A stretch of 52,660 bases of DNA from an uncultured Clostridia bacterium (GTDB lineage Bacteria > Bacillota > Clostridia > Oscillospirales > Acutalibacteraceae), in contig CALWVB010000103.1 in the NCBI GenBank assembly GCA_944384895.1, positions 1 through 52,660 on the forward strand. The letters run 5' to 3'. Numbering within the stretch: position 1 is the first letter of the stretch; every line of letters starts with the position of its first letter. This document shows positions 14,904 to 50,928 of the stretch, piece by piece. A model generated the notes under the pieces. It worked only from the letters and a program-made list of their open reading frames with translations. It was not told where the DNA came from and ran no database searches. A program made the translations under genes and the position numbers.

Positions 14904-15074
14904 GGGGCGCCTGCGCAGCGCATCTTTTAGATGCGCTAAAAAGCAAAATAATTTAAAAATACGCATACCTGAGTTGATAAAAGGAAACAGAGTTTTTTTA
15001 ATAAGCAGTACTTAATATGGAAAATTATTTTGCATTGCACCGCCATATTTTATATGGCGGTACGCAGGCGCCCC
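14904..15074 (-). repeat. Cloverleaf repeat, copy A
   Basis: A 171-bp GC-rich unit in the 435-bp gap between the dehydratase and aminotransferase genes, inverted relative to copy B. Outer stem GGGGCGCCTGCG (14904-14915) pairs with 15063-15074. The first arm is AGCGCATCT-TTT-AGATGCGCT (14917-14937). The inner stem GCAAAATAATTT (14943-14954) pairs exactly with 15022-15033. The second arm is CCGCCATAT-TTT-ATATGGCGG (15040-15060). The flank GTACCGTTTA before it matches the outer box of other copies. It does not code. The rest of the gap is AT-rich without other features. Confidence 0.92.
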
Positions 15075-15216
15075 CTTTTCAAGGGAACGTGACCGTACAT
15101 GATTAAATAAAGTATGTTTAAATTTATTACTTATTTATGTGGGTTATGAGACGTTGGATTAATAATAGTTTTTATTATTAATAAAATAAAGATTACAAAA
15201 AAAGAGGATATTTATA

Positions 15217-16386
15217 ATGAAAATATATTTATCTCCTCCTAATATGGGAGGAACAGAAATAAAATATATAAATAGAGCGTTTGATACAAATTGGATAGCG
15301 CCCAATGGACCTGAGCTTAATGCTTTTGAAAAAGCTGTTTGTGAATATATTAATATGGATAATGCATTAGCGGTATCGTCAGGTACAGCTGCCATTCATT
15401 TAGCATTAAGATGGTTGGGAATAAAACAAGGCGATTATGTATTTTGTTCTGATTTTACATTTATAGGTTCCTGTGACGCTGTCTTATATGAAAAAGCTAC
15501 CCCTATTTTTATAGACAGCGAACCGGATACATGGAATATGTCGCCGGTTTCATTAGAAAAAGCTTTTATTTGGGCGAAAAAAGAAAATAAACTGCCAAAA
15601 GCGGTTATTATTGTTGATCTTTATGGAGAAAGCGCTGATTGGGATGCACTAATACCAATTTGTAAAAAATACGGCGTACCTATATTAGAAGATGCAGCCG
15701 AAGCAATAGGCGCTACATATAAAGGGAAAAAATGTGGATCATTTGGCGATATTTCTATTTTTAGCTTTAATGGAAATAAACTTATAACGACTTCCGGCGG
15801 CGGGATGGTTTTATCAAATAATAAAGCGGCAATTGATAAAATGCGTTTTTGGTCAACTCAGGCTAGAGAAAACTTTATACATTATGAACATTGCGAATAC
15901 GGATATAATTATAGGCTGTCCAATATCTGTGCGGCAATAGGTTTAGGTCAAATGGAATTCTTGCAAACAAAACTTGATATACGCCGTAAAATACATGAAA
16001 GATATATAAAAGGCTGTGAAGATTTGCCGGTAAATATAAAAGAAGCTTCAGAAAAAGGCAAGTCAAATTATTGGTTAAATCTGCTTATGCTTAATGAAAA
16101 AATAATCACTCCGGAACAGCTTGTTACATATCTGCAACAAAAGGGAATAGAAGCTAGGCCCGTATGGAAACCTATGCATATGCAGCCTTTATTTAAAGAT
16201 GCAATATCATTTTCACATTATGATAAAGAATTTTTGGATGAAATATTATTTAACAAGGCTGTATGTTTGCCAAGCGGAGATGGTATGAGCAATGAGCAGC
16301 AACAGGAAGTTATTAATGAAATAAAAAAAGCTATTAAAATTTATACTGATAATAAAAATGAGGTGAATAAAACATATGCTGTATAA
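15217..16386 (+). CDS. DegT/DnrJ/EryC1 sugar aminotransferase (PglE-like)
   Basis: A 389-aa PLP-dependent aminotransferase predicted to put an amino group at C4 of the 4-keto-6-deoxy sugar made by the dehydratase. It begins KIYLSPPNMGGTE, has the substrate-site SSGTAAIHLAL near 52-62 and an EDAAEAIGA cofactor strand, and carries the PLP lysine at K188 (SFNGNKLITT). Length is typical. An AGAGGA ribosome site lies 8-9 bases before the ATG. The 3-prime end overlaps the phosphoglycosyl transferase gene by 11 bp, so these two are translationally linked. Confidence 0.9.
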   Translation: MKIYLSPPNMGGTEIKYINRAFDTNWIAPNGPELNAFEKAVCEYINMDNALAVSSGTAAIHLALRWLGIKQGDYVFCSDFTFIGSCDAVLYEKATPIFIDSEPDTWNMSPVSLEKAFIWAKKENKLPKAVIIVDLYGESADWDALIPICKKYGVPILEDAAEAIGATYKGKKCGSFGDISIFSFNGNKLITTSGGGMVLSNNKAAIDKMRFWSTQARENFIHYEHCEYGYNYRLSNICAAIGLGQMEFLQTKLDIRRKIHERYIKGCEDLPVNIKEASEKGKSNYWLNLLMLNEKIITPEQLVTYLQQKGIEARPVWKPMHMQPLFKDAISFSHYDKEFLDEILFNKAVCLPSGDGMSNEQQQEVINEIKKAIKIYTDNKNEVNKTYAV

Positions 16387-17035
16387 ACGGTATATAAAAC
16401 GCTTATTAGATATTTTTTTATCAGTTATAGCTTTAATTGTGCTTTCAATACCAATGTTAATAGTCGCACTGCTTGTCAGGATAAAAATAGGTTCTCCTGT
16501 TTTATTCCGGCAAAAAAGGATTGGAAAAGATGAAAAAGAATTTATGCTTTTAAAATTCCGGACAATGCTTGAATTACGGGATGAAAATGGAGTTTATCTT
16601 CCTGATACAGAACGCATAACAAAATTTGGACGTTTTTTACGTACTACTTCAATTGATGAATTACCCAGTTTAATTAATATTATAAAAGGCGATATGAGTA
16701 TAATTGGACCGCGTCCTTTACCTGCAAGATATTTAAACCGTTATAATGAACGGCAGCATCGCAGGCATGAGGTACGGCCAGGATTATCCAGCCCATCTGT
16801 AGTACAGGGACGAAATTTATTAAGCTGGGAAGACCAATTTGAACAAGATGTTCAATATGTGGAAGGTATAAGCTTTTGGATGGATTTAAAAAGTATATTT
16901 AAAACTGTAAGTATTGTTTTTTCCGGCAAAGGAGCAACTTCTGATGATGGAGATGCACGTTGTGAATTTATTGGTATAGCAGATATAAATGATCTAAAAG
17001 ATCCGGAAAATAATTATATGAAATTACATAAATAG
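16376..17035 (+). CDS. Monotopic phosphoglycosyl transferase (PglC-like)
   Basis: A 219-aa bacterial sugar transferase that would move a phospho-sugar from UDP to undecaprenyl phosphate, the first membrane step of glycan assembly. One N-terminal reentrant membrane helix (DIFLSVIALIVLSIPMLIVA) is followed by FRQKRIGKDEKEFMLLKFRT, then the catalytic Asp-Glu pair D94-E95 (SIDELPSL) and KGDMSIIGPRPL. Size is that of the minimal PglC type rather than the long WbaP type. It overlaps the aminotransferase gene and precedes the acetyltransferase. Confidence 0.92.
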   Translation: MLYKRYIKRLLDIFLSVIALIVLSIPMLIVALLVRIKIGSPVLFRQKRIGKDEKEFMLLKFRTMLELRDENGVYLPDTERITKFGRFLRTTSIDELPSLINIIKGDMSIIGPRPLPARYLNRYNERQHRRHEVRPGLSSPSVVQGRNLLSWEDQFEQDVQYVEGISFWMDLKSIFKTVSIVFSGKGATSDDGDARCEFIGIADINDLKDPENNYMKLHK

Positions 17036-17137
17036 TTAAAATATAACGAAAAAATTACTAAGAAAGGCGCGATACTATTGCATAAATAAAGCTGTTTTTA
17101 GCTAATTTGTGTGGATATTTTGTATCGAACAATTAAT

Positions 17138-17770
17138 ATGAAAAAGATAATAATTATTGGCGCCGGTGGATTTGGACGCGAATTATTACAATGGATAAAG
17201 GATATAAATGCAGTCAAGCCAACATGGGAAATCGCTGGATTTATTGATGATAATCTTAATGCGCTTGATAAAATTGAATGTGATTATAAAATTATTGGAA
17301 CAATATCAGATTGGCAGCCAAAAGAAGATGAAGAATTTGCTTTAGCATTAGGTGCGCCTGAAATAAAAGAAAAAATATCAAAAATGATGAAACAACGCGG
17401 AGCAAGATTTCCAGCTATTATACATCCAACCGCTATTATTACTCCATTTAGTACATATGGAGAAGGGCTTGTAATGTTTCCTTATTCAAAATTATCTGTA
17501 AATTCCTGCGTTGGAGATTTTGTAACAATATTATCATCCGGAGTAGGACATGATGTACAGATTGGCGATTATACGACAATAAGCGGAATGTGCAGCGTAT
17601 TGAGAAATGTAACTATTGGCAAACGGGTATTTCTTGCCGCGGGCGTATCATTAGCTCAGGATGTTATTATAGGTGACGATGTATATATAGGTTTAGGAAG
17701 CGTTGTATTAAAAGATATAAAACAAAACGCACGTGTATTTGGTAATCCAGCACGGGTTATGCCAAAGTAA
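17138..17770 (+). CDS. Left-handed beta-helix sugar acetyltransferase (PglD-like)
   Basis: A 210-aa NeuD/PglD-family acetyltransferase. The N-terminal UDP-sugar-binding Rossmann-like part (IIIIGAGGFGRELLQW) spans to about 75. A hexapeptide-repeat helix follows, with GHDVQIGDYTTISGMCSVLRN providing the catalytic His region, and it ends GNPARVMPK. It would acetylate the C4 amine, completing a diacetyl-bacillosamine-type sugar. The ATG at 17138 gives the normal family N-terminus; a GTG at 17111 adds nine unconserved residues. Neither has a strong ribosome site. The gap before it (about 100 bp) is unremarkable. Confidence 0.88.
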   Translation: MKKIIIIGAGGFGRELLQWIKDINAVKPTWEIAGFIDDNLNALDKIECDYKIIGTISDWQPKEDEEFALALGAPEIKEKISKMMKQRGARFPAIIHPTAIITPFSTYGEGLVMFPYSKLSVNSCVGDFVTILSSGVGHDVQIGDYTTISGMCSVLRNVTIGKRVFLAAGVSLAQDVIIGDDVYIGLGSVVLKDIKQNARVFGNPARVMPK

Positions 17771-17896
17771 AAAAATTTTAGCAGGATTATTTAGACAAAG
17801 CTATATTATCCTAAATCAAACAATATATAAAAATGAAAGTAAAAATATGCAATATTTGTTATGTGTAATATCCCTAGTTACGATACCGTAAAAAAG

Positions 17897-18068
17897 GGGG
17901 CGCCTGCGTGCAACCATATGAAATATGGTTGCCGAATGCAAAATAATTTGCTAAATAAAGATGATGGGTATTTAGAATAATGCTAGTTTCTCTTATTAAC
18001 TCAGCCTGAATATTTAAGAAATTATTTTGCGTAAAGCGCATCCAAAGGATGCGCTGCGCAGGCGCCCC
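17897..18068 (+). repeat. Cloverleaf repeat, copy B (longer unit about 17797-18160)
   Basis: The 172-bp core lies in the 431-bp gap between the acetyltransferase and acyl-AMP ligase genes. Outer stem GGGGCGCCTGCG (17897-17908) pairs with 18057-18068. Arm 1 is GCAACCATAT-GAA-ATATGGTTGC (17910-17932). The inner stem is 17938-17949 with 18019-18030. Arm 2 is AGCGCATCC-AAA-GGATGCGCT (18035-18055). Similarity to copies C and G continues about 100 bp to each side, from AAAGCTATATTATCC to TTTAAATTATCTTAGA. TTAGACAAA occurs at both ends (17791-17799, 18154-18162), a possible target duplication. Confidence 0.93.
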
Positions 18069-18201
18069 CTATAAACGGTACTTTTACATTATATTTTGTT
18101 TTTTTATTTTAGTTTTATTATTTATTCTTTTGTTTTAAATGCTTTAAATTATCTTAGACAAATTTATAAAAGATTATTTTTTTGAAAGGAAATATATAAA
18201 C

Positions 18202-19731
18202 ATGCCTCGGTTGACAGATTTATTTTATAATAGTGCGAACAAATATCCGGGAAAACAAGCTATTTGGTGCGATGGGAATAGTATGACTTATGATCAATTG
18301 TCAACTTCAGTCAGCCAATGTGCTAATTTTCTTTCACAAAATGGCATTAAATATAAAGATCATATCGGAATACCAATGAATAATAGTATAGAATCTGTTG
18401 TTTTAATTTTAGCTGCAGCTGAGATTGGTGCAGGTTTAGTTCCTATTAATCCTACTATACCTTATCCTGCAATTGAAGCTGCATTTAATACTGGAAATGT
18501 AAAACATATTATTGCACGCAAATCATTTTATAAACAGGTAGAAAAAGTAAACGGAAATTTACCAAACGGTTTAAAGCTATGCCTTGATGGAGACTTAGAA
18601 AATATATTGCCTTTTTCTGATATCAATACAGCGCCGGTAAACCGTATGCAAGACAAACGTATTACGGGAGACGAGACTTTATTTTTAACTATGACGTCAG
18701 GTTCTACGGGAAAACCAAAACCTATAAATCTAACGCAAAATAATAAATATGAACGTGCGATGGCACATATAAAATTATACGATATTACAGAAAACGACCG
18801 TATTTTAGCGGCAACACCGTTATATCATTCGCTTGCAGAGCGATTGGTATTGCTTCCATTATTAATAGGCGCAACATCCATATTACTTCCAAGATTTACT
18901 CCTTCCATATGGCTTAACTGCGTATATGAACAAAAGGTCACATTTACTATTGCTGTTACCGCTCAATTAAGCCAGATAGCCCAGCTTTTATCCAGCCCGT
19001 TTATACCGGATATCAGTAGCCTTAGGAGTATAGTGTCTTCATCAGCGCTGTTGGAACCGCATGTTAGAACTGAACTTATTGATAAACTAAAGTGTGATTT
19101 TCATGAAATGTATGGAACATCAGAGACATCTACAGCAACAAGTATAAATTTCAGAGAATCGATTAATAAACAAAAATCAGTTGGACGGGCTATACCTCAA
19201 GCAGATATACGAATAATCCGAGAGGATGAAAGTATAGCCAAAACAAATGAAATTGGTGAAATTGTATGCAAAACAAAGCTAATGTTTGATGGGTATTATA
19301 ATATGCCAAAATTAACTCAATCAGCTTTTACAGACGGATATTTTAAAACAGGCGATTTAGGCCGTTTAGATGAAGACGGGTATTTATATTTCTGCGGGAG
19401 GAAAAAAGAGCTTATTATAACAGGCGGTATAAATGTTTATCCTCAGGATGTAGAACAATGCGTACAGCAAATACCGGATATTGATGAGTGTGCAGCGTTT
19501 TCTTATCCAGACGACCGCCTTGGGGAAGTTGTAGCTTTAGCGGTAGTACTTTCACAAGGGGCGGATACTACAAAACGTATGATACAAACTCATTGCGCTA
19601 GAAATCTAGCGGATTTTCAGCAGCCTCATCACATTTTTATATTGCAATCGCTTCCTAAAAATGCAATGGGGAAACTTATGAAATCAAAAATTATTGAACA
19701 AGTAAGAATAGATGAAATAACGAATAAATAA
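18202..19731 (+). CDS. Acyl-AMP ligase (AMP-binding adenylating enzyme)
   Basis: A 509-aa ANL-superfamily adenylating enzyme. The P-loop-like TMTSGSTGKPKP, the EMYGTSETS motif, TGDLGRLDEDGYLYFCGR, the hinge to the C-terminal domain (KKELIITGGINVYPQD) and a near-terminal catalytic Lys region (PKNAMGKLMKSK) are all present. It should activate a carboxylic acid as acyl-AMP. The acyl carrier protein encoded 16 bp downstream is the likely acceptor, in place of CoA. The acid is unknown; the DAHP synthase downstream hints at an aromatic or shikimate-derived acid, but a fatty or hydroxy acid for N-acylating a sugar is equally possible. AAAGGA ribosome site. Confidence 0.88.
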   Translation: MPRLTDLFYNSANKYPGKQAIWCDGNSMTYDQLSTSVSQCANFLSQNGIKYKDHIGIPMNNSIESVVLILAAAEIGAGLVPINPTIPYPAIEAAFNTGNVKHIIARKSFYKQVEKVNGNLPNGLKLCLDGDLENILPFSDINTAPVNRMQDKRITGDETLFLTMTSGSTGKPKPINLTQNNKYERAMAHIKLYDITENDRILAATPLYHSLAERLVLLPLLIGATSILLPRFTPSIWLNCVYEQKVTFTIAVTAQLSQIAQLLSSPFIPDISSLRSIVSSSALLEPHVRTELIDKLKCDFHEMYGTSETSTATSINFRESINKQKSVGRAIPQADIRIIREDESIAKTNEIGEIVCKTKLMFDGYYNMPKLTQSAFTDGYFKTGDLGRLDEDGYLYFCGRKKELIITGGINVYPQDVEQCVQQIPDIDECAAFSYPDDRLGEVVALAVVLSQGADTTKRMIQTHCARNLADFQQPHHIFILQSLPKNAMGKLMKSKIIEQVRIDEITNK

Positions 19732-19747
19732 AGGAGAAAAAATTAAA

Positions 19748-25822: not shown

Positions 25823-25960
25823 TAAATATTGTGGATGTGAATGATGTGCCCAATTGTTTTCTAATAATGCATAAAGCTATATTATCCTAAATTAAACAAT
25901 ATATAAAAATATGCATTAAAATATTAAAGAAAACATTTAAAGTTACGATACCGTAAAAAG

Positions 25961-26131
25961 GGGGCGCCTGCGTGCAACCATATGAAATATGGTTGCCAAA
26001 TGCAAAATAATTTGCTCAATAAAGATGATGAGTATTTAAGATAATACTAGTTTCTTTTATTAACTCAGCCTGAGTATTAAAAAATTATTTTGCGTAAAGC
26101 GCATCCAAAGGATGCGCTGCGCAGGCGCCCC
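25961..26131 (+). repeat. Cloverleaf repeat, copy C (longer unit about 25872-26221)
   Basis: The 171-bp core is nearly identical to copy B. Outer stem 25961-25972 pairs with 26120-26131. Arm 1 is GCAACCATAT-GAA-ATATGGTTGC (25974-25996). The inner stem is 26002-26013 with 26082-26093. Arm 2 is AGCGCATCC-AAA-GGATGCGCT (26098-26118). The flanks GTTACGATACCGT (left) and ATAAACGGTACTTTT (right) match copy B. AATGCA appears at both outer ends (25866-25871, 26222-26227). The copy abuts the decayed gene that starts near 26223. Confidence 0.93.
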
Positions 26132-26222
26132 CATAAACGGTACTTTTACATTATCTGTTGCTTTTTATACTAGATTTATTATTTATAATTTTAGTTTTGA
26201 GTGATTTAAATTATCTTAGAAA

Positions 26223-26752
26223 ATGCAATTAAAATGCATGAAGATAACCATGGCTTTTATATATCCATATATTATGAAGAACATTTGCAAGGGATGTAAA
26301 CGCTGTTTAATAGAGAACTGGCAGTTTAAAGCAATTATTAAAAAAAGTGAATATTCAAATGTATATGCAGCTAAACATATTTCAAATACGTTAAGAAAAA
26401 ACAACGCATCAGGCGGAGCGTTTACAGCATTGTCGGATACAATATTATAATCAGACGGCATAATTTATGGAGCGGCATATGATAATAATTTTAATTTAAG
26501 ACATATAAGAGCGGGTAATATAGAAAAAAGAAATCAATGCCGTGATAGTAAATATCATCAAAGTAATATATTAGATTCTTTTATAATGATTGAGAATGAT
26601 TTGAAAAAATAGAAAGTATGTTTTTGTTTGGTTGTACCCCATGTCAATGCGATACGCCAGGGAAAATGAAAGCATTATTTTTAAGATTTCATAAATCTAT
26701 TTATAAAAATTCGTTGTTAATAAGATTATATTTAAAACATAGAAAACATTAG
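26223..26752 (+). pseudogene. Decayed F420-hydrogenase-beta-like gene
   Basis: Remnant related to the intact gene at 27960. The first part reads VYAAKHISNTLRKNNASGGA, matching VYAAINKDKEKLLKSSSGG there, after a degraded Cys cluster ICKGCKRC. A TAA at 26448-26450 interrupts the frame, which then continues SDGIIYGAAYDNN to a second stop near 26612. A third piece in another frame (26618-26752) keeps FGCTPCQ, the counterpart of FTGTPCQ. At least one stop, a frameshift and a large internal deletion make it non-functional. It lies immediately after cloverleaf copy C. Confidence 0.75.
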
Positions 26753-33175: not shown

Positions 33176-33896
33176 TATATTTCATATAATTGATTTTCAT
33201 ACGCATATACTTTCTGGAATAGATGACGGAAGCAAATGTGTAGAAGAATCTATTAATATATTAAAAGAACAATGGGATCAACATATAGATATAGTTGTTG
33301 CAACACCTCATTTTTTAGCATCACAAAATACACCTGAAGCATTTTTTCTTAATCGTAAAAATGCTGCGGATAATTTATTAAAAGCGATATCGCAATTGGA
33401 TAATAGGCCTAAAATAGCTCAAGGAGCAGAAATTAGATATTTTCGTGGGATTAGCCAATGTGATAAGCTTGATTTGCTTAAAATTATGGGGACTAATCTG
33501 TTATTAATAGAAATGCCGTTTTTTCCATGGTCAAAGGATATTTTAAAAGAATTATATGATTTATATACAGTTCGTGAATTTAAAGTGATTATAGCGCATA
33601 TTGAAAGATATTTGACAATACAGAAAAAAAGTATAATAAATGAGCTTTTTAATATGGATGTATTTATTCAGGCAAATGCTGAATTCTTTTTAAATTGGTA
33701 TACAAGAAGAAAGGCTTTAAATATGCTTGAAAAAGATCAGATACATTTATTAGGTTCCGACTGCCATAACCTTAATACACGTCCGCCTAATATTAGACAA
33801 GCTATAGATATTATATATAAATATTTTGGAGAATATAAAGTTAAACAATTATATAAATTATCGCAAGATCTTTTAATAAATGCTGTATTGTCCTAA
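33123..33896 (+). CDS. CpsB/YwqE-type PHP tyrosine phosphatase
   Basis: A PHP-domain metallophosphatase that dephosphorylates the CpsD-type kinase. Metal ligands are visible in DFHTHILSGIDDGSK, VVATPHFL, EIRYF, IAHIERY and GSDCHN. The start is uncertain: ATGs at 33111 and 33123 both lie within the kinase gene, and the second has a weak GGTAGGAA upstream. Either way about 50-65 bp overlap the kinase gene, so translation is coupled. About 20 N-terminal residues before the first metal motif are unusual and lysine/asparagine rich. It ends the polysaccharide locus. Confidence 0.88.
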   Translation: MKKNIEKNTNIIKSNNLDIFHIIDFHTHILSGIDDGSKCVEESINILKEQWDQHIDIVVATPHFLASQNTPEAFFLNRKNAADNLLKAISQLDNRPKIAQGAEIRYFRGISQCDKLDLLKIMGTNLLLIEMPFFPWSKDILKELYDLYTVREFKVIIAHIERYLTIQKKSIINELFNMDVFIQANAEFFLNWYTRRKALNMLEKDQIHLLGSDCHNLNTRPPNIRQAIDIIYKYFGEYKVKQLYKLSQDLLINAVLS

Positions 33897-34006: not shown

Positions 34007-34172
34007 GGGGCGCCCGCGCAGCCAACCATATAATTATATGGTTGGCTTATGCAAAATAATTTGCTGAAAAAAGATACTGTTAATAAGGAAATACCGGTTC
34101 CTTTATTATATAGTTTTTATAAGACGGTTATTTTGCACCCAGCGCATCTTTGATGCGCTACGCGGGCGCCCC
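34007..34172 (+). repeat. Cloverleaf repeat, copy D
   Basis: A diverged 166-bp copy in the 513-bp gap between the phosphatase gene and rnz. Outer stem GGGGCGCCCGCG (34007-34018) pairs perfectly with CGCGGGCGCCCC (34161-34172): one base pair changed on both sides relative to other copies. Arm 1 is a perfect 28-base palindrome (34020-34047). The inner stem GCAAAATAATTT (34051-34062) pairs with a partly decayed GGTTATTTTGC. Arm 2 is AGCGCATC-TTT-GATGCGCT (34141-34159). The loop contains a hairpin AAGGAA/TTCCTT (34085-34103). Remaining gap sequence is AT-rich and featureless. Confidence 0.92.
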
Positions 34173-39104: not shown

Positions 39105-42100
39105 ATGAGATTGACCAAAAAGCTAATGGCGATAATGTTATCCATTGCAATGATTTTGTCAGTATGCATTATACCAGCAGCCGCACAAAATGATGAAGGG
39201 CTTTTAATCTTCTATAATTTTGCGGATGGGGCTGAAGATGCTTCAGGCAATGGAAACGATGGTACGTTAAGCGATGTCACCATAACAGACGATGAGATAT
39301 TTGGCAAAGCAGGCGAATTTAATGGTTCAAGCAGAGTGGTAATGCCGGTTGAACCGTTTACAGCTTTAAATGATTATTCATTTGAAGCATGGATTAATCC
39401 ATCAACGCTTGAAACATGGTCAACCCTTTGGTCATTAGCAAGTGATCAAAAAAATTATATGAATTATACTATTACGTCAAACGCCTCTGGAGTAAAGGGC
39501 GGCGTATCATATAGTATGGAAATTAATGATAGTGAAAATAGAATAAGCGCTAAAAACGGCGTATCGCCAACTGTAAATACATGGAATCATATAGCGTTTA
39601 CTCAAGAGGGCAATATTGGGCGCTTATATTTAAATGGACAGCTTGTTGCTGAATCTAATAATGATATAAGCTTACATAAAGCTGAATTAGTAAATAAAAT
39701 GGCTACGCTTGCATCACTTGATGGAACAAATGCATATCTTGGAACGGGTACAGTATGGGGAGATCCAGGATTTAAAGGCAGGATAGCTGAATTTAAAGTT
39801 TATAATAAAACATTATCCAGTGATGATATCGCTGCTGAATATGCATCAATTCAGGACCAGATACAGCTTGTTGCAGATAAAGAAGCTGTTGCAGATGCAA
39901 AAGATAAGCTTACAATAACAGATTTTACTAACCAGGATATTGATTTGCCTAGTGAAATAGGTGAAAATGTTTCTATATCATGGGAAAGCAATAATACAGA
40001 TATTATTACAAATGACGGTAAAGTAACACGTCCTGTTGGAGCTGATACAGAGGTTACTTTAACAGCTACTCTTACAAAAGGCAATGCAAGCGATACAAAA
40101 GAATTTATAGTAACTGTACAGCGTGCAGCTGTAACTGATGAAGATATCGTTGCATTGGATAAACAAGCCCTTGATTTAGGAGATATTTCTAAAATTAGAG
40201 GGGATATTGAGCTTCCAGCTTTAGGTTATGAAGGTTCAACAATAACATGGGTTTCATCCCGTCCGGACGTTATATCAGCATATGGCATTTATACTGAAAT
40301 AGAAGACCAAGCGGAAGATATAACTGTTATTCTTACAGCAACCATTACAAAAGGCTCTGTTAGCGATACAAAAGAATTTACAGCTATAGTTCCAGCATTT
40401 TCAAACGAACCATATGCATATCTTATGGCACATTTCCCAAATGTAAGCCCATTCCCGACATCCTTCTCAGTTTCATTGGATGGACAAACATTTACTAAAA
40501 TTAATCCAAGCGAACCGCAGCTTGAATCAACTGTTGGCAATGGTATGACCCGCGACCCGTTTATATTCAGGGGACAGGACGGCGTATTCCATATTATAGC
40601 TACAGACGGTTGGACATCAAGGGATATATTTGTAGCTGATTCTACAGATTTAGTAAATTGGACAAATCATAGAATACTCAATGTAAATGGTGATTTAGCT
40701 GAAAGAGGAGTTGATCTTGGCGGACATGCATGGGCTCCTGAATGCAGTTATGATCCAGAAGTAGGAAAATATCTTATTTATTGGTCAGCATCAACAAATG
40801 AATCTCTTGATCCTGACGGACCGGGACAAAAAGGCCAGGGACAATATCATAAGACATATGCTGTATATACAGAAGATTTTGTAACATTTGAAAAACCGTT
40901 TATTTTAATAGATCCTGGATTTGATATCATCGATCCGACTATGGTACAGTATGAAGGAAGATGGTATACAGTATTAAAAGATGAACGAAATAATTCTTCA
41001 TCAGTACCAACAGGTAAAAAGCTTATCTGGGGTGAAGCTGATCATCTTTCAGGACCATGGACTATTCATACTGAATTAGCTATTTCTGAGGACAGCAGAA
41101 ATAAAGAAGGCCCGACAATTTATAAAGATATTCACAGCGACGGATATTTCCTTGCATGGGACTATTTTTCCAATAGCGCTATGGGTGTTGCATATTCTAA
41201 AACGCCTAATATAGGTACATCATGGAAAATAGTTGATTCCAGCATAGCAAATGATGTACGCCATCCTTCAGTAATCACTATTACAGAAGAAGAATATTAC
41301 AGAGTACTTGATGCATTTGGTGCGGATTCAGGTGAAATAGAAATACCGGATACAATTGAAGAGCCTAAAGCTGAACCAATTTTGCATTATTCTTTTGAAA
41401 AAGATACAATTGAAGGAAATATTGTTAAAGATATATCCGGAAATGGTAATGATGGAACGCTTTATGGTTCTCCGTCATTTGAAGAAGACCCATTAAATCC
41501 AGACGGACAATCAATAAGACTGAATAATGATAATATTACATCCCAGTCAGGCAATGGGCAATATGTATCAATGCCGTCTCAATTGCTTGCAAATATTAAT
41601 GATGTAACAATTTCAGGATGGATTTATTGTATAGCAGGTTCTGCTACAGGCAATACAAACCAGGGACGATTCTTTGATTTTGGTACTGGTCCAAGCAGTT
41701 CTGGCAAATATTATTTCTATTATTCAACTCAATATGACAGCAGTTCTCCAAGAGTTGGTATTACTATGAACAGTAATGCCGGTGAAACTACTGTTATGGC
41801 TCCAAACCGTGATGTAGGAAATTGGCATCATATCGCAGTTGTACTTGACGGAACTGATATGATACTTTATTATGACGGCGTTGAATACAGAAGAAATAGT
41901 AACTTAGCAACAAAACCGTTTATGCTGGAATATACAGCTGCATTCCTGGGACGTTCTATGTGGGGACCTGATAAACTGTATAATGGACGTATTGACGATT
42001 TCAGAGTATATAACAGAGCGGTTTCAGCTGAGGAAATATCAAATATATATCAAGGTAAAACTGATGATGAGCTTGCAAAATTAAATACAGATTTAGCTTT

Positions 42101-42947
42101 ACTTGATTTAGGAGATCTTTCAGCAGTTACAGATGATATTTCTCTTCCAACAACTTTAAAATATGGCTCAACTATCGAATGGTTATCAGATAAACCTGAA
42201 TATATCGATAATACAGGTAAGGTAACCCGTCCGGCATATGAAACAGGTAAAGTTCCTGTAACCCTTACGGCTATAGTTACAAATGGCGATAGCAGCCAGA
42301 CAATAACATTCAATGCTATTGTATTGCCGAGAGATAAGATGGTTGAAGGTATAAATATAGAAGCGCCTGAAAAAGCCGGACAAAATAATTTGTTTGAAAT
42401 TAAAGTAACTACAACATCTTTTGATGTCGATGATATCCGTGTTACAAGCGAATATGGATTGGATATTGGCAGACAGATTATAGATACTCAAATAAATATG
42501 GATAATACTGTTACATGGACAATTGGCCTTAGTATTGGTACAAAGGGTAATCGTGAATTAACAGTAACAACATTTGCATCAGGCCAGGTTAAAGATAAAG
42601 CAACATTTAATATTGCTATAGTTAATCCATGGGAAGTTAATCCTCCAGAGGTTGAACCGGAAGTTTATGAAGCAGGTATAGTTGAAAATCTTGCAGCTGT
42701 AAATCAGCCGTTTACTGTGGTTATTAAAACAAGCCTTAGCGTACAGGATATTCAGTTATATAATGAGTATGGTGATACAATAGGCCAGCTTAGCAAAGAA
42801 TATTCCGATCAAGATGGAGTACGTACATGGACAATAAAAGCTGCCTTTGGTACAAAAGGTAACCGTACTTTAAGATTTAAAGCTATGTGTGATGGAGGAA
42901 CTATACTTGACGCGGGCTCTGATAGAATTACAATTATAAAAATGTGA
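39105..42947 (+). CDS. Secreted multidomain GH43 glycosidase
   Basis: A 1280-aa secreted enzyme. Signal peptide about 1-27 (cleavage near AAA-Q). LamG domain about 35-255. Two Ig-like domains about 260-440, with ISWESNNTDIITNDGKV and ITWVSSRPDVISAYG. The GH43 five-bladed propeller spans about 445-750. The catalytic base is D484 (MTRDPFIF) and the acid is E668 (KEGPTIYK); GGHAWAPECSYDP and DIIDPTMVQYEGRWY are also typical. A second LamG domain (about 770-1040), another Ig-like domain (about 1045-1120) and two EYGxxIG repeat modules (near 1116 and 1221) follow. Arabinan or arabinoxylan is the likely substrate given the GH51 protein elsewhere in the window. GGGAGG ribosome site. Confidence 0.9.
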   Translation: MRLTKKLMAIMLSIAMILSVCIIPAAAQNDEGLLIFYNFADGAEDASGNGNDGTLSDVTITDDEIFGKAGEFNGSSRVVMPVEPFTALNDYSFEAWINPSTLETWSTLWSLASDQKNYMNYTITSNASGVKGGVSYSMEINDSENRISAKNGVSPTVNTWNHIAFTQEGNIGRLYLNGQLVAESNNDISLHKAELVNKMATLASLDGTNAYLGTGTVWGDPGFKGRIAEFKVYNKTLSSDDIAAEYASIQDQIQLVADKEAVADAKDKLTITDFTNQDIDLPSEIGENVSISWESNNTDIITNDGKVTRPVGADTEVTLTATLTKGNASDTKEFIVTVQRAAVTDEDIVALDKQALDLGDISKIRGDIELPALGYEGSTITWVSSRPDVISAYGIYTEIEDQAEDITVILTATITKGSVSDTKEFTAIVPAFSNEPYAYLMAHFPNVSPFPTSFSVSLDGQTFTKINPSEPQLESTVGNGMTRDPFIFRGQDGVFHIIATDGWTSRDIFVADSTDLVNWTNHRILNVNGDLAERGVDLGGHAWAPECSYDPEVGKYLIYWSASTNESLDPDGPGQKGQGQYHKTYAVYTEDFVTFEKPFILIDPGFDIIDPTMVQYEGRWYTVLKDERNNSSSVPTGKKLIWGEADHLSGPWTIHTELAISEDSRNKEGPTIYKDIHSDGYFLAWDYFSNSAMGVAYSKTPNIGTSWKIVDSSIANDVRHPSVITITEEEYYRVLDAFGADSGEIEIPDTIEEPKAEPILHYSFEKDTIEGNIVKDISGNGNDGTLYGSPSFEEDPLNPDGQSIRLNNDNITSQSGNGQYVSMPSQLLANINDVTISGWIYCIAGSATGNTNQGRFFDFGTGPSSSGKYYFYYSTQYDSSSPRVGITMNSNAGETTVMAPNRDVGNWHHIAVVLDGTDMILYYDGVEYRRNSNLATKPFMLEYTAAFLGRSMWGPDKLYNGRIDDFRVYNRAVSAEEISNIYQGKTDDELAKLNTDLALLDLGDLSAVTDDISLPTTLKYGSTIEWLSDKPEYIDNTGKVTRPAYETGKVPVTLTAIVTNGDSSQTITFNAIVLPRDKMVEGINIEAPEKAGQNNLFEIKVTTTSFDVDDIRVTSEYGLDIGRQIIDTQINMDNTVTWTIGLSIGTKGNRELTVTTFASGQVKDKATFNIAIVNPWEVNPPEVEPEVYEAGIVENLAAVNQPFTVVIKTSLSVQDIQLYNEYGDTIGQLSKEYSDQDGVRTWTIKAAFGTKGNRTLRFKAMCDGGTILDAGSDRITIIKM

Positions 42948-45404: not shown

Positions 45405-45575
45405 GGGGCGCCTGTGCAGCGCATCAAAGATGCGCTAAATGCAAAATAATATAATCTTTCACAGCAGGCTGTACTAAAATAAGCAACAGGTATTTTCTTA
45501 TCAATATCAGCTTAAATAGGGTATATTATTTTGCGATAAGCAGCCATATGAAATATGGCTGCACACAGGCGCCCC
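45405..45575 (-). repeat. Cloverleaf repeat, copy E
   Basis: A 171-bp copy inside the feo operon, between the two feoA genes, inverted relative to copy B. Outer stem GGGGCGCCTGTG (45405-45416) pairs with CACAGGCGCCCC (45564-45575). First arm AGCGCATC-AAA-GATGCGCT (45418-45436). The inner stem GCAAAATAATAT (45441-45452) pairs with ATATTATTTTGC (45523-45534). Second arm GCAGCCATAT-GAA-ATATGGCTGC (45540-45562). In both the outer and the inner stem a base pair differs from other copies, with both partners changed. The rest of the gap is AT-rich. Confidence 0.93.
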
Positions 45576-45704
45576 TTTTTAACGTAGCTCAACCAGTAAT
45601 CTTTTGGTTATAAATATATTTGTTTTAGTTTAGTTACTTTATTATTAGTTGTTATATAATTTAATTTTATATATTATGTATCTTTTGATATGGGAGGGAT
45701 AAGT

Positions 45705-45946: not shown

Positions 45947-45956
45947 ATCATCACAG

Positions 45957-45972
45957 GTTAGTGTAGACTAAC
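45957..45972. promoter_or_regulatory. Fourth DtxR-type operator dyad, before feoB
   Basis: GTTAG-TGTAGA-CTAAC is a perfect dyad with the same spacing as the three before feoA, placed 32 bp before the feoB start. It suggests a second metal-controlled entry point, although no convincing promoter is seen with it. Confidence 0.65.
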
Positions 45973-46003
45973 TAAATGCATTATAATTAAGGAGGACGCC
46001 CTG

Positions 46004-48295
46004 ATGAGCATAAAAATTGCCCTTGCCGGCAATCCTAACTGCGGCAAAACTACTATGTTTAATAACCTTACCGGTTCCAGTCAATATGTTGGTAACTGGC
46101 CAGGCGTTACAGTAGAAAAAAAGGAAGGAAAGCTGCATGGAGAAAAAGAGGTTATAATTACTGACCTCCCGGGAATATATTCCCTTTCACCTTATACATT
46201 AGAAGAAGTTGTAAGCCGTAATTATTTATTAAATGAAAATCCTGATGCAATAATAAATCTTGTTGACGGTACAAACTTAGAACGTAACTTATATCTTACA
46301 ACTCAATTGCTTGAATTAGGTATACCAACTGTTATAGCATTGAATATGGTTGACTTAGTTCGTAAAAACGGCGATAAAATTGATATAAAGAAATTAAGTA
46401 AAGAGCTTGGCTGCGATATTATAGAAACATCCGCATTAAAAGGTATTGGTTCAAAAGAGGCTGCAAAAAAAGCTATTGATTTAGCAAGAAGCGGATCTAA
46501 GGCACCAGATTATCATAAATTTAGTAAAACGGTTGAAGATGCTTTACAATCAATAATCAGTCTTATTGCAGATAAAGTCAATCCACAGCATGAACGTTGG
46601 TATGCTATCAAATTATTTGAACGCGATGAAAAAGCTATAGAACAATTAAAACTTACTGCTGATATCACAGCATCAATTGAGAATATTATTAAAGAAGTAG
46701 AAAATAAACTTGATGATGACAGTGAAAGCATTATAACAAACGAACGTTATGAATATATCGGAAAAATAATGTCCGATTGTGTACATAAAAAGAATAGAGC
46801 TTTAACAACAACAGATAAAATAGATAAGGTTGTTACAAACCGTTGGCTTGCATTACCGATATTCGCTGTTGTTATGTTTATTGTATATTATTTATCGATA
46901 TCTACAGTCGGTACATTGGCTACTGACTGGGTTAATGATGGAGTATTCGGTGATGGATGGCATTTATTCGGAATAGGTTCCGGAGAATACTCAGAACAGG
47001 TAGAATTATTTGAAGCTGAGGCTGAAGCAGCTCAGGCAGCAGGAACTGAACTTACTATGGAAGAACCGGATCCAGCTAATTATGGCGTATGGGTACCAAG
47101 TATACCAGCGCTTATAGAAAGCGGTCTTGATGCTGCAAATACGCCTGATTGGTTAAATAGTTTAGTATTGGATGGTATCGTAGCAGGTGTTGGTGCTGTA
47201 TTAGGCTTCGTTCCACAGATGTTAGTATTATTCTTACTGTTATCAATATTGGAAGACTGTGGATATATGGCTCGTGTAGCCTTTATTATGGACAGGATAT
47301 TCCGTAAATTTGGATTATCAGGTAAATCATTTATTCCAATGCTTATTGCATCCGGTTGTGGTGTACCAGGCATAATGGCATCAAAGACTATAGAAAATGA
47401 AAAAGACCGCCGTATGACGGTTATGACTACTACATTTATACCATGTTCTGCAAAATTACCGGTTATCGCTTTGATAGGCGGTGCATTATTCCCAGATATG
47501 TGGTGGTTAGCGCCAGCTATGTACTTCTTAGGTATTTTAGCAGTTATTGTATCTGGTATAATATTAAAGAAAACAAGAATGTTTGCAGGCGATCCAGCTC
47601 CATTCGTTATGGAATTACCTCAATATCACGTACCAGCAGCTAAAGGTGTTCTTATTCATATGTGGGAACGTGGAAAATCCTTTATTATCAAAGCCGGTAC
47701 CGTTATCTTCTTAGCTTGTGCAGCTATTTGGTTCTTATCAAGTTTCGGCTTCACAGATGGAAAATTCGGTATGGTTGAACAATCAGCAAGTATGTTAGCT
47801 GTAATAGGTGGAGTAATTGCTCCGATATTTGCTCCATTAGGCTTTGGTACTTGGCAGGCAGCAGTTGCTACATTTACAGGACTTGTTGCAAAAGAAAATG
47901 TTGTTGGTACATTCGGTGTATTGTTTGGATTAGGCGCTGATGTTACTGAAGCAGATCCAGGATTATTAGCTGAAATATCAAATATGTTCCCATATGGCGC
48001 AGCAGCATTATCATTCCTTGTATTTAACCTGTTATGTGCACCATGCTTTGCAGCTATAGGCGCTATTAAGAGAGAAATGTCAAGTGCAAAATGGACTTGG
48101 TTTGCTATAGGTTATCAAACAGTTTTAGCTTATGCTAGCGCATTTATGATTAACCAAATAGGCGGTTTGATATTTGGCGGAGTAAGCTTTGGTGTATCAA
48201 CTGTTATAGCATTTATTGTATTAGCACTTTTCTTATTCCTTCTCTTCCGTCCAAATCCACAGAATAAATTACAGCGTAGAAAAGTTACTGCTTAA
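46004..48295 (+). CDS. feoB: Ferrous iron transporter FeoB
   Basis: A 763-aa GTP-gated Fe(II) transporter. The N-terminal G domain has G1 GNPNCGKT at 9-16, YVGNWPGVTVEKKEG, G3 DLPGIYSL, G4 NMVD and a G5-like SALKG. The helical GDI domain follows, then about eight membrane helices with the Gate motifs containing Cys (LIASGCGVPGIMASK; FIPCSAKLPVIALI). An acidic insertion (about residues 330-360, rich in Glu and Ala) lies in an outer loop. GGAGG ribosome site. The full-length gene is intact. Confidence 0.96.
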   Translation: MSIKIALAGNPNCGKTTMFNNLTGSSQYVGNWPGVTVEKKEGKLHGEKEVIITDLPGIYSLSPYTLEEVVSRNYLLNENPDAIINLVDGTNLERNLYLTTQLLELGIPTVIALNMVDLVRKNGDKIDIKKLSKELGCDIIETSALKGIGSKEAAKKAIDLARSGSKAPDYHKFSKTVEDALQSIISLIADKVNPQHERWYAIKLFERDEKAIEQLKLTADITASIENIIKEVENKLDDDSESIITNERYEYIGKIMSDCVHKKNRALTTTDKIDKVVTNRWLALPIFAVVMFIVYYLSISTVGTLATDWVNDGVFGDGWHLFGIGSGEYSEQVELFEAEAEAAQAAGTELTMEEPDPANYGVWVPSIPALIESGLDAANTPDWLNSLVLDGIVAGVGAVLGFVPQMLVLFLLLSILEDCGYMARVAFIMDRIFRKFGLSGKSFIPMLIASGCGVPGIMASKTIENEKDRRMTVMTTTFIPCSAKLPVIALIGGALFPDMWWLAPAMYFLGILAVIVSGIILKKTRMFAGDPAPFVMELPQYHVPAAKGVLIHMWERGKSFIIKAGTVIFLACAAIWFLSSFGFTDGKFGMVEQSASMLAVIGGVIAPIFAPLGFGTWQAAVATFTGLVAKENVVGTFGVLFGLGADVTEADPGLLAEISNMFPYGAAALSFLVFNLLCAPCFAAIGAIKREMSSAKWTWFAIGYQTVLAYASAFMINQIGGLIFGGVSFGVSTVIAFIVLALFLFLLFRPNPQNKLQRRKVTA

Positions 48296-48338
48296 TTTTT
48301 GATATATAAAAATATCCATAGAAAAGAGGAGTTGTGTT

Positions 48339-48551
48339 ATGCTTCAATGGATATTAAATAATATAGCTACAATTATTATATGCGCTATTATTCTATTGCT
48401 CGGAATATTAGCAGCCAGATATCTTTATAAATCACATAAAGCTGGTAAATGCGCAGGATGTCCAGGTTGTTCAAGCTGCGATGGCAGTTGTTGCAATTGT
48501 TCTCATAGCAGCCAGCCGGTTCCTGCCGAAAATGAGCAGAAAAAACATTAA
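48339..48551 (+). CDS. FeoB-associated Cys-rich membrane protein
   Basis: A 70-aa protein: one N-terminal transmembrane helix (IATIIICAIILLLGILAARYL), then a short tail with seven Cys (CAGCPGCSSCDGSCCNC). This is the typical FeoB-associated Cys-rich protein encoded after feoB in Bacillota. The tail may bind iron or an Fe-S cluster in the cytoplasm. AGAGGAG ribosome site. It ends the feo operon. Confidence 0.92.
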   Translation: MLQWILNNIATIIICAIILLLGILAARYLYKSHKAGKCAGCPGCSSCDGSCCNCSHSSQPVPAENEQKKH

Positions 48552-48596
48552 TTTAGAGTAATACTACACCTCCCCAAAAGCATGTAGATAAATCTT

Positions 48597-48668
48597 AAAA
48601 ATGAGCCTATAAAATGATCTTGCCATACTTACTCCTTATGGTATTTAGATTATAGGCTCATTTTTGCT
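48597..48668 (+). terminator. Terminator of the feo operon with nested hairpin
   Basis: AAAATGAGCCTATAA (48597-48611) pairs perfectly with TTATAGGCTCATTTT (48650-48664), followed by a short T-rich end. The 38-base loop contains a second hairpin CCATA/TATGG. Confidence 0.8.
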
Positions 48669-48793
48669 ATACTTTTTTCTTATTTTGTTATACTATAGGT
48701 AATTTTGTTCATAATTGTACTTAAAGTTTTTAAATTGTCGCATTATTTTAATTCAAATTAAAAAATATTACTTTTTTAATATAATAAAAATAA

Positions 48794-48840
48794 TAGACGC
48801 ATAACTGATTTTGTTTTATATTAAATCATTTATGCGTCTA
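48794..48840 (-). terminator. Hairpin, probable terminator for the minus-strand gene
   Basis: TAGACGCATAA (48794-48804) pairs with TTATGCGTCTA (48830-48840), with further GATT/AATC pairing inside. On the minus strand it is followed by TTATTTTTATTAT, so it would stop transcripts coming from 49243 that pass through cloverleaf copy F. Confidence 0.6.
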
Positions 48841-48942
48841 TATTCATCTAAATCATTAATTTATCTAAAAAGCATTATAACATCAAAAATTAAATATATA
48901 GTATTATAATTATAAAACAGTTTCCGGAAACGTTAACTTCAA

Positions 48943-49122
48943 GGGGGGCGCCTGCGTGCCGCCATATTTTATATGGCGGCACAATGCAAAATAATTTTTT
49001 ATATATAAAGATATAAGCTGAACTTAAAAATATATGTTTTACTTTTTTGGTTTAGCTTATTATATACTTAAATTATTTTGCCCACAGCGCATCTAAAAGA
49101 TGCGCTGGACAGGCGCCCCCCC
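48943..49122 (+). repeat. Cloverleaf repeat, copy F
   Basis: A copy in the 690-bp convergent gap between the feo operon and the AI-2E-type permease gene. Outer stem GGGGCGCCTG (48945-48954) pairs with CAGGCGCCCC (49110-49119); the innermost two pairs are lost, and outer G and C runs can extend it. Arm 1 is TGCCGCCATAT-TTT-ATATGGCGGCA (48957-48981). The inner stem is 48986-48997 with 49070-49081. Arm 2 is AGCGCATCT-AAA-AGATGCGCT (49086-49106). The GGTACTTTT box follows on the right at the usual distance. Confidence 0.92.
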
Positions 49123-49242
49123 AAAAAGTCATAGGTACTTTTCCGTATCCCATTTTTATTAATATTATTTTTAATTCGTTTATAATTTGTGATATATAAA
49201 ATAACTTTTATATATAGGTTAATATATTTAATATAATCTTAT

Positions 49243-50457
49243 TTAATTATCTGAAGGAGGATCATTAACAGATTCTTTTACAATATCATTCTTATCCATT
49301 TCACGTTTAAGCCGTTCATCACGTCTGTTCATAATAAGATTATACAGCATTCTTATTACAGCAATAACTGGAACGCCTATAAGCATACCCACAAAGCCGA
49401 ATAACCCGCCTCCAATAGTAACGGCAAATATAACCCAGAATGGACTGATATCCAATGCGCCGCCTAATATTTTCGGCCCAATAAAATTAGTGTCGATTTG
49501 TTGAAATGCAAGTAAAAATATTGTAACGCCTAATGTAAAAATAAAGTTCTTGGAAGTTACAAATGTTATTAATACAACAAAAACACCGCCAATGATAGGG
49601 CCAAAGTATGGGATTATATTAAACATACCAAATATAAATCCTAATACAACCGCATTATCAACTCCAAATAATAATAAACCAATGGTAGCGCCTATGCTTA
49701 CAATTAAACAATCGCCAAATTGACCTACGAAATAGCGATATATAATTCTATCAGCCTTTTGATAAAGTGTGGACATAAAACTCATTTGATCTTTATTTAA
49801 TATAACAGCAGCCATACGCTTAAATTGAGTCAATAATTTATCCTTTTCAAGTATCATATAAATTGATACAATAAGCCCGACAAAAAAGTTCATTAGTACT
49901 TTTGCAAATGAAGTAGTTGCATTAATTACATCTGGAGCAATAGATGTTACGTCTGAATTAATATTAAAGAAAGAATAAATAGTATCTATATTAAAGCTGT
50001 CAACAAAATTATTAATTTGAGTATTAAACATATGCAGTATCTCACCAGGTTCAGCAAGTGATCTTAAAAATACGCCTATACTGTCTATATATCCGGGAGC
50101 ATCTCGCAAAAAGTCTGAGATATTTTGAATTAACATAGGTATAAGGCTGCCTATTATAATAGCTAATATTGCTATGAAAGATAGATAAACAATAGCACAG
50201 CTGAAACCAACAGCGCATTTTGATAATATTTTAAATTTTGATCTTTTAAATTTTCTTAACAGCAATATATATGGTTTATATAGAAAATATGCTATAACAA
50301 GGCCGACAATAAACGGAGTCAGCACAGAAAATACCTTGCCAAGGCCTGATAACATACCGGTTAAATTATCAAATGTTTTATATATTGCAATAACTGCTGT
50401 TGCAAATAATAGCCCTTTAATCCATATAGACCATTTACTCCAAATTCTTTTCAGCAT
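49243..50457 (-). CDS. AI-2E-family permease
   Basis: A 404-aa membrane protein of the AI-2E transporter family (PF01594 type). Two helices are followed by a long soluble-looking middle domain (about 110-200) and then a block of five to six helices including FVGQFGDCLIVSIGATIGLLL, GFIFGMFNIIPYFGPIIGG and GGLFGFVGMLIGVPVIAVIRM. Members are variously sodium/proton antiporters or exporters, so the substrate is open. An AAGGAGC ribosome site precedes the ATG. Stand-alone gene. Confidence 0.88.
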   Translation of the reverse strand: MLKRIWSKWSIWIKGLLFATAVIAIYKTFDNLTGMLSGLGKVFSVLTPFIVGLVIAYFLYKPYILLLRKFKRSKFKILSKCAVGFSCAIVYLSFIAILAIIIGSLIPMLIQNISDFLRDAPGYIDSIGVFLRSLAEPGEILHMFNTQINNFVDSFNIDTIYSFFNINSDVTSIAPDVINATTSFAKVLMNFFVGLIVSIYMILEKDKLLTQFKRMAAVILNKDQMSFMSTLYQKADRIIYRYFVGQFGDCLIVSIGATIGLLLFGVDNAVVLGFIFGMFNIIPYFGPIIGGVFVVLITFVTSKNFIFTLGVTIFLLAFQQIDTNFIGPKILGGALDISPFWVIFAVTIGGGLFGFVGMLIGVPVIAVIRMLYNLIMNRRDERLKREMDKNDIVKESVNDPPSDN

Positions 50458-50754
50458 AATCTTGCTCCTTTAATGCTTTATGAGCATGGGTTATTTATAT
50501 TATGGTGCGGCTTATCATAATCCATTCGAAATTATGTGATTACCTGTTTAATTTTATAAGATAATAATCAATTTTTTATAAAAATAATAGGAATAAGTAT
50601 TGCACATAAAATATTTAAAAATCAATACATTTAAAAGCATGAATAAATTTTTATATATAATAGATAAAGCTATATTACCCTAAATCAAATAATATATAGA
50701 AATAAAAGTAAAAATATGTAATATAAACATCTCTGGTTACGTTATCGTAAAAAG

Positions 50755-50928
50755 GGGGCGCCTGCGTGCAACCATATGAAATATGGTTGCCAAATGCAAA
50801 ATAATTTGTTATATTAAAGATGATGTATATTTAAGGAAATACTAGTTTCTCTTTATTACTTAGCCTGAATATTTTAAAAATTATTTTGCCTAAAGCGCAT
50901 CTAAAAGATGCGCTGCGCAGGCGCCTCC
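50755..50928 (+). repeat. Cloverleaf repeat, copy G (longer unit about 50663-51019)
   Basis: Close relative of copies B and C in the gap between two minus-strand genes. Outer stem GGGGCGCCTGCG (50755-50766) pairs with CGCAGGCGCCTC (50916-50927), with one mismatch. Arm 1 is GCAACCATAT-GAA-ATATGGTTGC (50768-50790). The inner stem is 50796-50807 with 50878-50889. Arm 2 is AGCGCATCT-AAA-AGATGCGCT (50894-50914). Flanks match B and C for about 90-110 bp on each side. ATATAATA occurs at 50655-50662 and 51020-51027, a possible target duplication, though weak in AT-rich DNA. Confidence 0.93.

Follow-up and report, generated by a model that had tools for sequence, protein, structure and literature searches.

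The window analyzed here, by which we mean the whole 52,660-nt stretch of contig CALWVB010000103.1 (assembly GCA_944384895.1, from an uncultured Clostridia bacterium) and not the repeat itself, carries seven copies of an intergenic repeat with a cloverleaf-shaped core. These repeats are probably copies of a nonautonomous mobile DNA element of about 350 bp that has a folded DNA core, is moved in trans by a hairpin-handling enzyme, and uses IS200-type transposase genes (tnpA) as a preferred site. According to the mechanism that we propose, the GC-rich four-helix center would act as folded DNA, either as a cruciform or as a folded single strand, and the two AT-rich ends would be the points of cutting and joining. 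A host or transposon enzyme, acting in trans, would handle the hairpins and leave no target duplication. The main destination would be AT-rich sites like ATAGnnAAA.gCaAT between genes, and an additional preferred, precise site would lie near the start of IS200-type tnpA genes. If this is true, a single species has been colonized by a short DNA element in which it is the shape that is conserved. Such an element would supply a single DNA fold in hundreds of natural versions, with the paired changes ready-made, for asking which cellular enzyme reads hairpin DNA, and its loops in both orientations would document the inversion of hairpins in a bacterial chromosome. Moreover, if one codon position of IS200 tnpA has been hit repeatedly, it becomes directly testable how palindromic repeats relate to IS200-like transposases, a question that the REPIN paper (PMC3116915, in part) calls unresolved.

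Architecture, copy number, and ends of the repeat

The seven copies described in an initial annotation of the window were all recovered at the same starts, with cores of the same lengths (166 to 175 bp), five on the plus strand and two on the minus strand. Each followed the four-helix plan given there, namely, an outer stem, a CCATAT arm with a triloop (arm 1), an inner stem around a loop of about 70 bases, and a GCGCATC arm (arm 2). The intergenic placement also held, with 7/7 cores lying between listed open reading frames (ORFs) of at least 80 amino acids (aa), as did the contrast in base composition (GC fractions of 0.36 to 0.43 in the cores versus 0.17 to 0.24 in the adjoining 150 + 150 bases). 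When the seven cores were folded and compared with dinucleotide shuffles, z scores ranged from -8.4 to -13.5, and for each core 0/100 shuffles were as low; a second folding tool gave a z score of -10.1 for positions 17892 to 18073. The core was found to be embedded in a longer element of about 350 bp, with homology extending past the core on the reference copy, near whose limits many of 40 scored genome matches start or stop (query positions 43 to 54 and 407 to 434). Ends were recognizable for three window copies (17797-18161, 25873-26223, and 50666-51020), and in the copy at 34007..34172 a diverged left end may begin near 33879 (6/21 mismatches). The features are as follows.

17797..18161, plus strand: reference copy, full-length, comprising left end, AT-rich left flank, cloverleaf core, AT-rich right flank, and right end
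17797..17816, plus strand: left end of the reference copy, AAAGCTATATTATCCTAAAT, next to the ATAGnn of the target consensus
17897..18068, plus strand: cloverleaf core of the reference copy, outer stem 12/12 paired
17910..17932, plus strand: arm 1 of the reference copy, a 10-bp hairpin GCAACCATAT/ATATGGTTGC with triloop GAA (TTC, TTT, or AAA in other copies)
17936..18032, plus strand: inner stem of the reference copy, TGCAAAATAATTT / AAATTATTTTGCG, enclosing the variable loop of about 70 bases
18035..18055, plus strand: arm 2 of the reference copy, a hairpin AGCGCATCC/GGATGCGCT with triloop AAA or TTT
18140..18161, plus strand: right end of the reference copy, TGCTTTAAATTATCTTAGACAA (consensus TGATTTAAATTATCTTAGAAAA)
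25873..26223, plus strand: full-length copy, core at 25961-26131
50666..51020, plus strand: full-length copy, core at 50755-50927 with one outer-stem mismatch
14904..15074, minus strand: core, ends not recognizable
34007..34172, plus strand: core with the C-G outer-stem variant GGGGCGCCCGCG/CGCGGGCGCCCC
45405..45575, minus strand: core with the T-A outer-stem variant GGGGCGCCTGTG/CACAGGCGCCCC, ends not recognizable
48945..49119, plus strand: core with two outer-stem mismatches, ends not recognizable

The initial annotation had proposed looking for copies outside the window, and hundreds are present. The exact outer-stem 12-mer occurred 207 + 219 = 426 times on the two strands of the 2,166,773-base draft genome, and a reversed control pattern occurred 0 times. 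Sequence was read for the window and further genome stretches, together 1,229,751 bases or 57% of the draft genome (the 57% sample). These stretches were partly picked for holding copies, a bias that the 12-mer ratio corrects. The sample held 192 cores (98 minus, 94 plus), and the 12 bp of the outer stem were perfectly paired in 171 of them. Because 281 of the 426 exact 12-mers fell within the sample, about 290 copies are expected genome-wide, at a density of about one per 7.4 kb. The median gap between copies was 3.1 kb, and the spacing was somewhat even (coefficient of variation, 0.64; 119 gaps, cut by stretch ends).

The gene content and ribosome-binding sites of the source genome, judged by eye, are suggestive of a Clostridia-like Firmicute. 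Outside this genome, the repeat was not encountered. A covariance model built on 49 diverse copies found a match in the source genome and none in two overlapping draws, 397 other genomes from the family and 393 others from the order; with only seven candidates scored per genome, weak or few copies may escape. A DNA search across 59 relatives recovered no copy, and phage and plasmid records gave no match to the element. Against Rfam, only a tRNA reached the gathering score in the whole window, and the best match for positions 17780 to 18180 (E = 0.16) was far under the cutoffs. The initial annotation had not recognized the repeat as a known family, and no match emerged in Rfam or in phage and plasmid records, no reference set of named DNA repeats having been compared. 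It was not recognized as ERIC, BOX, RUP, Correia, or bcr, and the parts of the literature that were searched hold no description of such a repeat or of elements in tnpA resembling it. Loose pattern scans returned five matches in viral contigs (0 with the true 3′ stem, 2 with a loose unrelated match) and at least 48 in genome contigs, where 6/48 among those listed, all from GC-rich genomes, loosely matched the right half; given so permissive a pattern, these scans have little bearing on distribution. Empty sites were sought in the nearest relative examined, the other genome of the genus, which has about 50% GC in two 20-kb stretches; one syntenic gap there lacks the element but is too diverged for defining ends. 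In this relative, the syntenic gap at L141 (G001:C27 about 102703-102897) contains another structured-looking repeat, which lies between AGAGTTAAG and CTTAACTCT.

Both ends could be aligned in 49 copies, which measured 323 to 382 bp between a left end AAAGCTATATTATCCTAAATC and the right end TGATTTAAATTATCTTAGAAAA. Among the 192 copies, both ends were retained in 49, one in 36, and neither recognizably in 102, and in 5 a right-end-like motif was reversed on the left; both ends in inverted order were seen in 0/192. Motifs closer to the core were also shared, with GTTACGTTACC on the left in 108/183 copies and CGGTACTTT on the right in 133/183, compared with 5 to 8/183 for controls. End motifs with at most 3 mismatches numbered 141 in the sample, and 121 of them adjoin a core or core fragment; of the remaining 20, 19 have 2 or 3 mismatches and 1 is exact and lies at a contig end. 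In a separate pass, lone ends with few mismatches were found flanking damaged cores. An autonomous element with the same ends did not emerge, the lone end motifs in the 57% sample being chance-like except for the one at the contig end, and the transposase with matching ends that the initial annotation had suggested looking for was likewise not found in this 57%.

No target duplication was detected: at offsets of 0 to 9 in the 49 copies, the flanks did not match beyond chance (best z score, 2.7 at one base). Terminal inverted similarity was weak, with the ends pairing at 11/17 positions (P = 0.019 by shuffles). When the flanks of 67 copies were rejoined, a target consensus of tATaGnnAAA.gCaAT was obtained, conserved on both sides and resembling the element's own end-to-end junction, CTTAGAAAA.GCTATAT. 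In a leave-one-out target profile, the median target ranked among the top 0.8% of positions, and the top 1% contained 57% of the targets.

Conservation of the fold

Fold and gene-context counts were made on a first sample of 132 cores, and pair statistics were made on the 49-copy alignment. The three-branch junction could be parsed in 130/132 cores. Standard pairs made up 98.3% of 2008 pair cells in the stems, and with slid structures pairing dropped to 30 to 54%. Changes on both sides were found in 15/41 pairs, with 0/500 shuffles reaching the observed values, and stem changes were two-sided in 81 cases versus one-sided in 11. Stem cells were off consensus in 2 to 6%, compared with 10 to 17% for the inner loop and flanks, and single-copy changes within a subfamily affected 0.4 to 1.0% of stem cells versus 1.3 to 1.4% of those in loops and flanks; all of these stem-constraint figures come from copies that were selected by their outer stem.

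The arm loops occurred in both orientations. The arm 1 triloops (n = 142) were GAA (45), TTC (32), TTT (33), and AAA (17), i.e., two reverse-complement pairs with few intermediates, and the best-defined subfamily contained all four orientation combinations of the two arms (9, 4, 4, and 3). Inner loops were reversed in 2/126. Small inversions at hairpin loops are a topic of study in chloroplast genomes. With respect to genes, 107/132 copies were placed between two called genes, in 72 tandem, 18 divergent, and 17 convergent gaps, which is proportionate to all gaps of more than 200 nt (133, 43, and 34, respectively). In the 72 tandem gaps, 37 copies had the same orientation as the genes and 35 had the opposite, i.e., no bias. 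Of the remaining copies, 9 were at edges and 16 overlapped an ORF. On the basis of the paired changes, the loops in both orientations, and the random orientation to genes, we conclude that preservation of the fold takes place at the level of DNA, either through selection or through a hairpin-mediated process in which one arm serves as the template for the other.

RNA families usually pass through G-U wobble. The ratio of wobble to mirror mismatches in 130 copies was 7:3 in the outer stem, 19:10 in arm 1, 0:2 in arm 2, and 61:1 in the inner stem. In the inner stem, 52/61 wobbles were T-G; judging from the consensus, these probably trace for the most part to a single inherited position at the helix foot in the commonest subfamily.

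Two variants of the core were also seen. Three copies (L040:3166-3412, L040:11967-12211, and L124:390-631) have an extra 75 nt or so at the tip of arm 1, two of them related by eye; the extra sequence may represent either an ancestral longer apex or triloop insertions. A shorter subtype, with a core of 119 to 135 bp (L037:7717-7850, L040:4961-5079, L044:19032-19166, and L051:11643-11774), has GGCGGC-type stems in place of arm 1 and a different inner stem, with the same topology by eye.

Interruption of IS200-type tnpA genes

A search of the draft genome for the Y1 transposase family gave 15 matches at 12 loci, many of them 60 to 110 bases from a core. The element sits inside an IS200-type tnpA, with a 5′ piece (...YHIVF or similar) on one side and a 3′ piece (...APKYRRK or similar) on the other. 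The 57% sample contained 15 TnpA loci, 8 of which had a core just upstream, in the same position and orientation; at one of these, L167, the TnpA match is weak. A ninth locus, L160, has an element end and half a core at a contig end. With L142, L166, and L171 excluded as loci that cannot be judged, the same codon position and orientation were occupied in 9/12 assessable TnpA loci, and the site was uninterrupted in L043, L159, and L162, all of which carry stops. The tnpA 5′ piece was found in 5/9 interrupted loci, and a further copy at L109:5973 weakly matches the 5′ piece; stops were present in 5/8 embedded 3′ pieces. When 187 left and 191 right flanks were tested, no other clear TnpA neighbor was found, apart from a few weak matches (the best with E = 9e-5 at 22% identity).

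The embedded elements are spread over the tree of copies and do not form one clade, with 6 label changes for 8 copies (shuffle mean, 7.9; minimum, 7). The left part of the element was more alike than the tnpA 3′ piece in 23/28 pairs, and in 20/21 when C114, which has the other flank type, was left out; these pair identities are gapped values for AT-rich DNA, and no baseline was measured. The tnpA insertions apparently represent several separate arrivals at one site. The tnpA site did not qualify as a good general target, the four occupied sites scored ranking only in the best 6 to 18% of positions in the target profile. Rather, tnpA appears to be a special site for the element. At L160:5480-5579 (contig end), beside tnpA, right-flank sequence adjoins an end of the left type, an arrangement that inversion of the interior between the ends would produce.

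Explanations, known systems, and candidate enzymes

Three options had been put forward in the initial annotation: a nonautonomous mobile element, a structured RNA, and a protein-binding cruciform. The first gains from the ends, the scatter in both orientations, and the precise interruption of tnpA; the structured RNA is not favored; and a protein-binding cruciform matches the form of the DNA, although no protein was identified. Several observations weigh against a mobile element of the kind proposed. Movement itself was not seen, and no enzyme was linked to the element ends. The IS200s of this genome have their own end hairpins (ACCACCCG...CGGG), by eye unlike the element ends, and no intact tnpA was found in the draft genome, each listed locus being stopped, fragmentary, or split by the element. 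The case for separate arrivals comes from one draft genome and from gapped identities of AT-rich DNA, and gene conversion could also make embedded elements alike. Because the tnpA sites fit the general target profile only fairly, the two kinds of site are not accounted for by a single recognition rule. Conserved pairing between left and right flanks was not supported. A single-strand mechanism at replication forks would often leave a strand bias, and none was seen (54 versus 64; P = 0.41; 69 weak-skew copies left out). Finally, the wobble excess in the inner stem leaves room for an RNA role, and 16/132 cores overlap a mechanically called ORF of at least 70 aa by more than 20 nt.

Candidates for the moving enzyme were considered with these points in mind. 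In our ranking, an IS200-type TnpA comes first by a narrow margin, on account of the tnpA link and the lack of target duplication, and an Xer-like tyrosine recombinase comes second; this ranking is made with low confidence, which for TnpA is lowered further by the fact that no intact copy was seen. An IS110 bridge-RNA system was set aside, as PF01548 had no match in the draft (88% complete) and controls matched in 4/14. Six loci with a Phage_integrase domain were found, two of them XerC- and XerD-like by reading of the translations. None of the six carries element ends, and those at C64 and C12 are near a core without ends. Compared with a dif half-site, the left end matched at 13/17 positions (P = 0.001 by shuffles) and the right end at 11/17 (P = 0.10). 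A host dif site was not recognizable in the draft genome (38 matches versus 27 for the control). The two alternatives taken up first below name these candidate enzymes and so overlap with the explanation that we prefer.

A possible, if less probable, account is that the repeat is an elaborate REPIN-like palindrome whose movement depends on a single-copy REP-associated tyrosine transposase or on the genome's IS200-type TnpA proteins. The many Y1-type loci, with the element in most of those assessable, the lack of duplication, and the resemblance of the left target motif tATaGnnAAA to the element right end, CTTAGAAAA, are consistent with this; a target resembling the element end is expected of the Y1 transposase class. 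REPINs, REP doublets forming hairpins and associated with IS200-related transposases, have also been proposed as parasites of an IS200-like ancestor (PMC3116915, in part), and REPINs or BIMEs with RAYTs are, like the element, of high copy number, palindromic, intergenic, kept in their stems by paired change, and linked to IS200-like tyrosine transposases. However, beyond the missing intact tnpA, the differing IS200 hairpins, and a target conserved on both sides, the core (starting GGGGCGCC; 166 to 175 bp in the window) has four helices rather than two short REPs and lacks a GTAG/GTGG head, and the element has separate AT-rich ends about 90 bp outside the fold. RAYT genes are described as invariably lying between two inverted REPs whose heads are GT(A/G)G (PMC2817692, in part), whereas the element splits tnpA and stands on one side of a gene piece.

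REPINs with RAYTs are one of the two nearest kinds to the element; the other is miniature inverted-repeat transposable elements (MITEs), which have terminal inverted repeats and direct repeats and are derived mainly from insertion sequences (PMC10969869, in part). Prokaryotic MITEs such as Correia, ERIC, Chunjie, and QMITE (PMC10969869, in part) are likewise short and intergenic, with AT-rich flanks and many copies, and weak terminal inverted similarity may be another shared trait. In contrast to MITEs, the element shows no detected target duplication and no insertion sequence of matching ends in 57% of the genome, and it has a conserved cloverleaf with loops in both orientations. IS200/IS605 elements are characterized by no duplication, asymmetric ends, an orientation-specific target, and hairpins. 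The element shares these features with them and with their internally deleted derivatives, but the IS200s of this genome have other end hairpins, with no cloverleaf as an end (by eye).

Rather unlikely is recombination of dif-like ends by a tyrosine recombinase of the Xer or integron type, whose substrate might be a folded single strand, as it is for CTX phage or integron cassettes. Ends and target can be read as an interrupted dyad with a short spacer and no duplication, the left end resembles the dif half-site, and host-encoded enzymes, of which the XerC- and XerD-like proteins among the six Phage_integrase loci would be examples, would explain the missing partner. On the other hand, the match of the right end was not significant, the pairing of the ends with each other is weak, and no dif site was recognizable. 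CTX-type phage integrates via a folded single strand of about 150 bases read by Xer recombinases (PMC5357621, in part), a parallel that serves as analogy only. In attC and CTX-type Xer elements, as here, one fold is kept over varied sequences, folded DNA is the proposed substrate, and the enzyme is supplied by the host or in trans. The element differs from integron attC in occurring in both orientations and not in one-orientation arrays (no search for attC core boxes was made) and, from both systems, in not being confined to a dif or attI site.

That duplication has spread a structured regulatory RNA or a transcription terminator seems improbable. The fold is very stable on either strand, the position is intergenic, and the inner stem has its wobble excess, but the copies have no orientation to genes (37 versus 35) and occupy gap types in proportion. 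Moreover, one-sided stem changes are almost absent, there is no Rfam match, and the ends lie far outside the fold. We judge equally improbable a chromosome-organizing site, i.e., a protein-binding cruciform kept by selection at each place. Stems better conserved than loops and flanks, also for single-copy changes, and the somewhat even spacing (coefficient of variation, 0.64) would suit it; the occurrence in one genome only speaks against it, and insertion into tnpA and defined ends are not expected of such a site. A self-splicing or homing intron with tnpA as its home site would account for the one position and one orientation at a conserved transposase stretch in 9/12 assessable loci but is very improbable, given the lack of a group I or II match in one embedded copy (L045:5000-6200; one weak, unrelated Rfam match at E up to 1), the 107/132 first-sample cores in gaps between called genes in random orientation, and the stops in 5/8 embedded tnpA 3′ pieces.

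The element lacks features that define REPINs, MITEs, IS200 derivatives, attC arrays, and introns, and it looks like a new kind of stripped-down mobile DNA. A more specific version of the mobile-element explanation, which we regard as doubtful, is that of a homing, protein-free element living off transposase genes, i.e., a cloverleaf with flipping arms that would have entered repeatedly at one tnpA codon position and spread to about 290 places with an enzyme encoded elsewhere, forming a class distinct from MITEs, REPINs, and introns.

Other features were observed along the way. A 299-aa tyrosine recombinase gene with a Phage_integrase domain lies at positions 7035 to 7934 of the window, beside 59-nt inverted repeats (7928-7986 / 8235-8293) that are 248 nt apart; together, the gene and repeats look like an invertible DNA switch. 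A protein similar to this recombinase is encoded at G000:C107:6344. The G000 sample stretches contain overlapping 16-mers, occurring 5 to 7 times each and together about GTTCTCTTATACAGAGAACATGGGTTGAAAT, which look like a CRISPR repeat. At positions 39105 to 42947 of the window, a 1280-aa ORF with internal repeats of 48 and 67 nt possibly encodes a repeat-rich surface protein.

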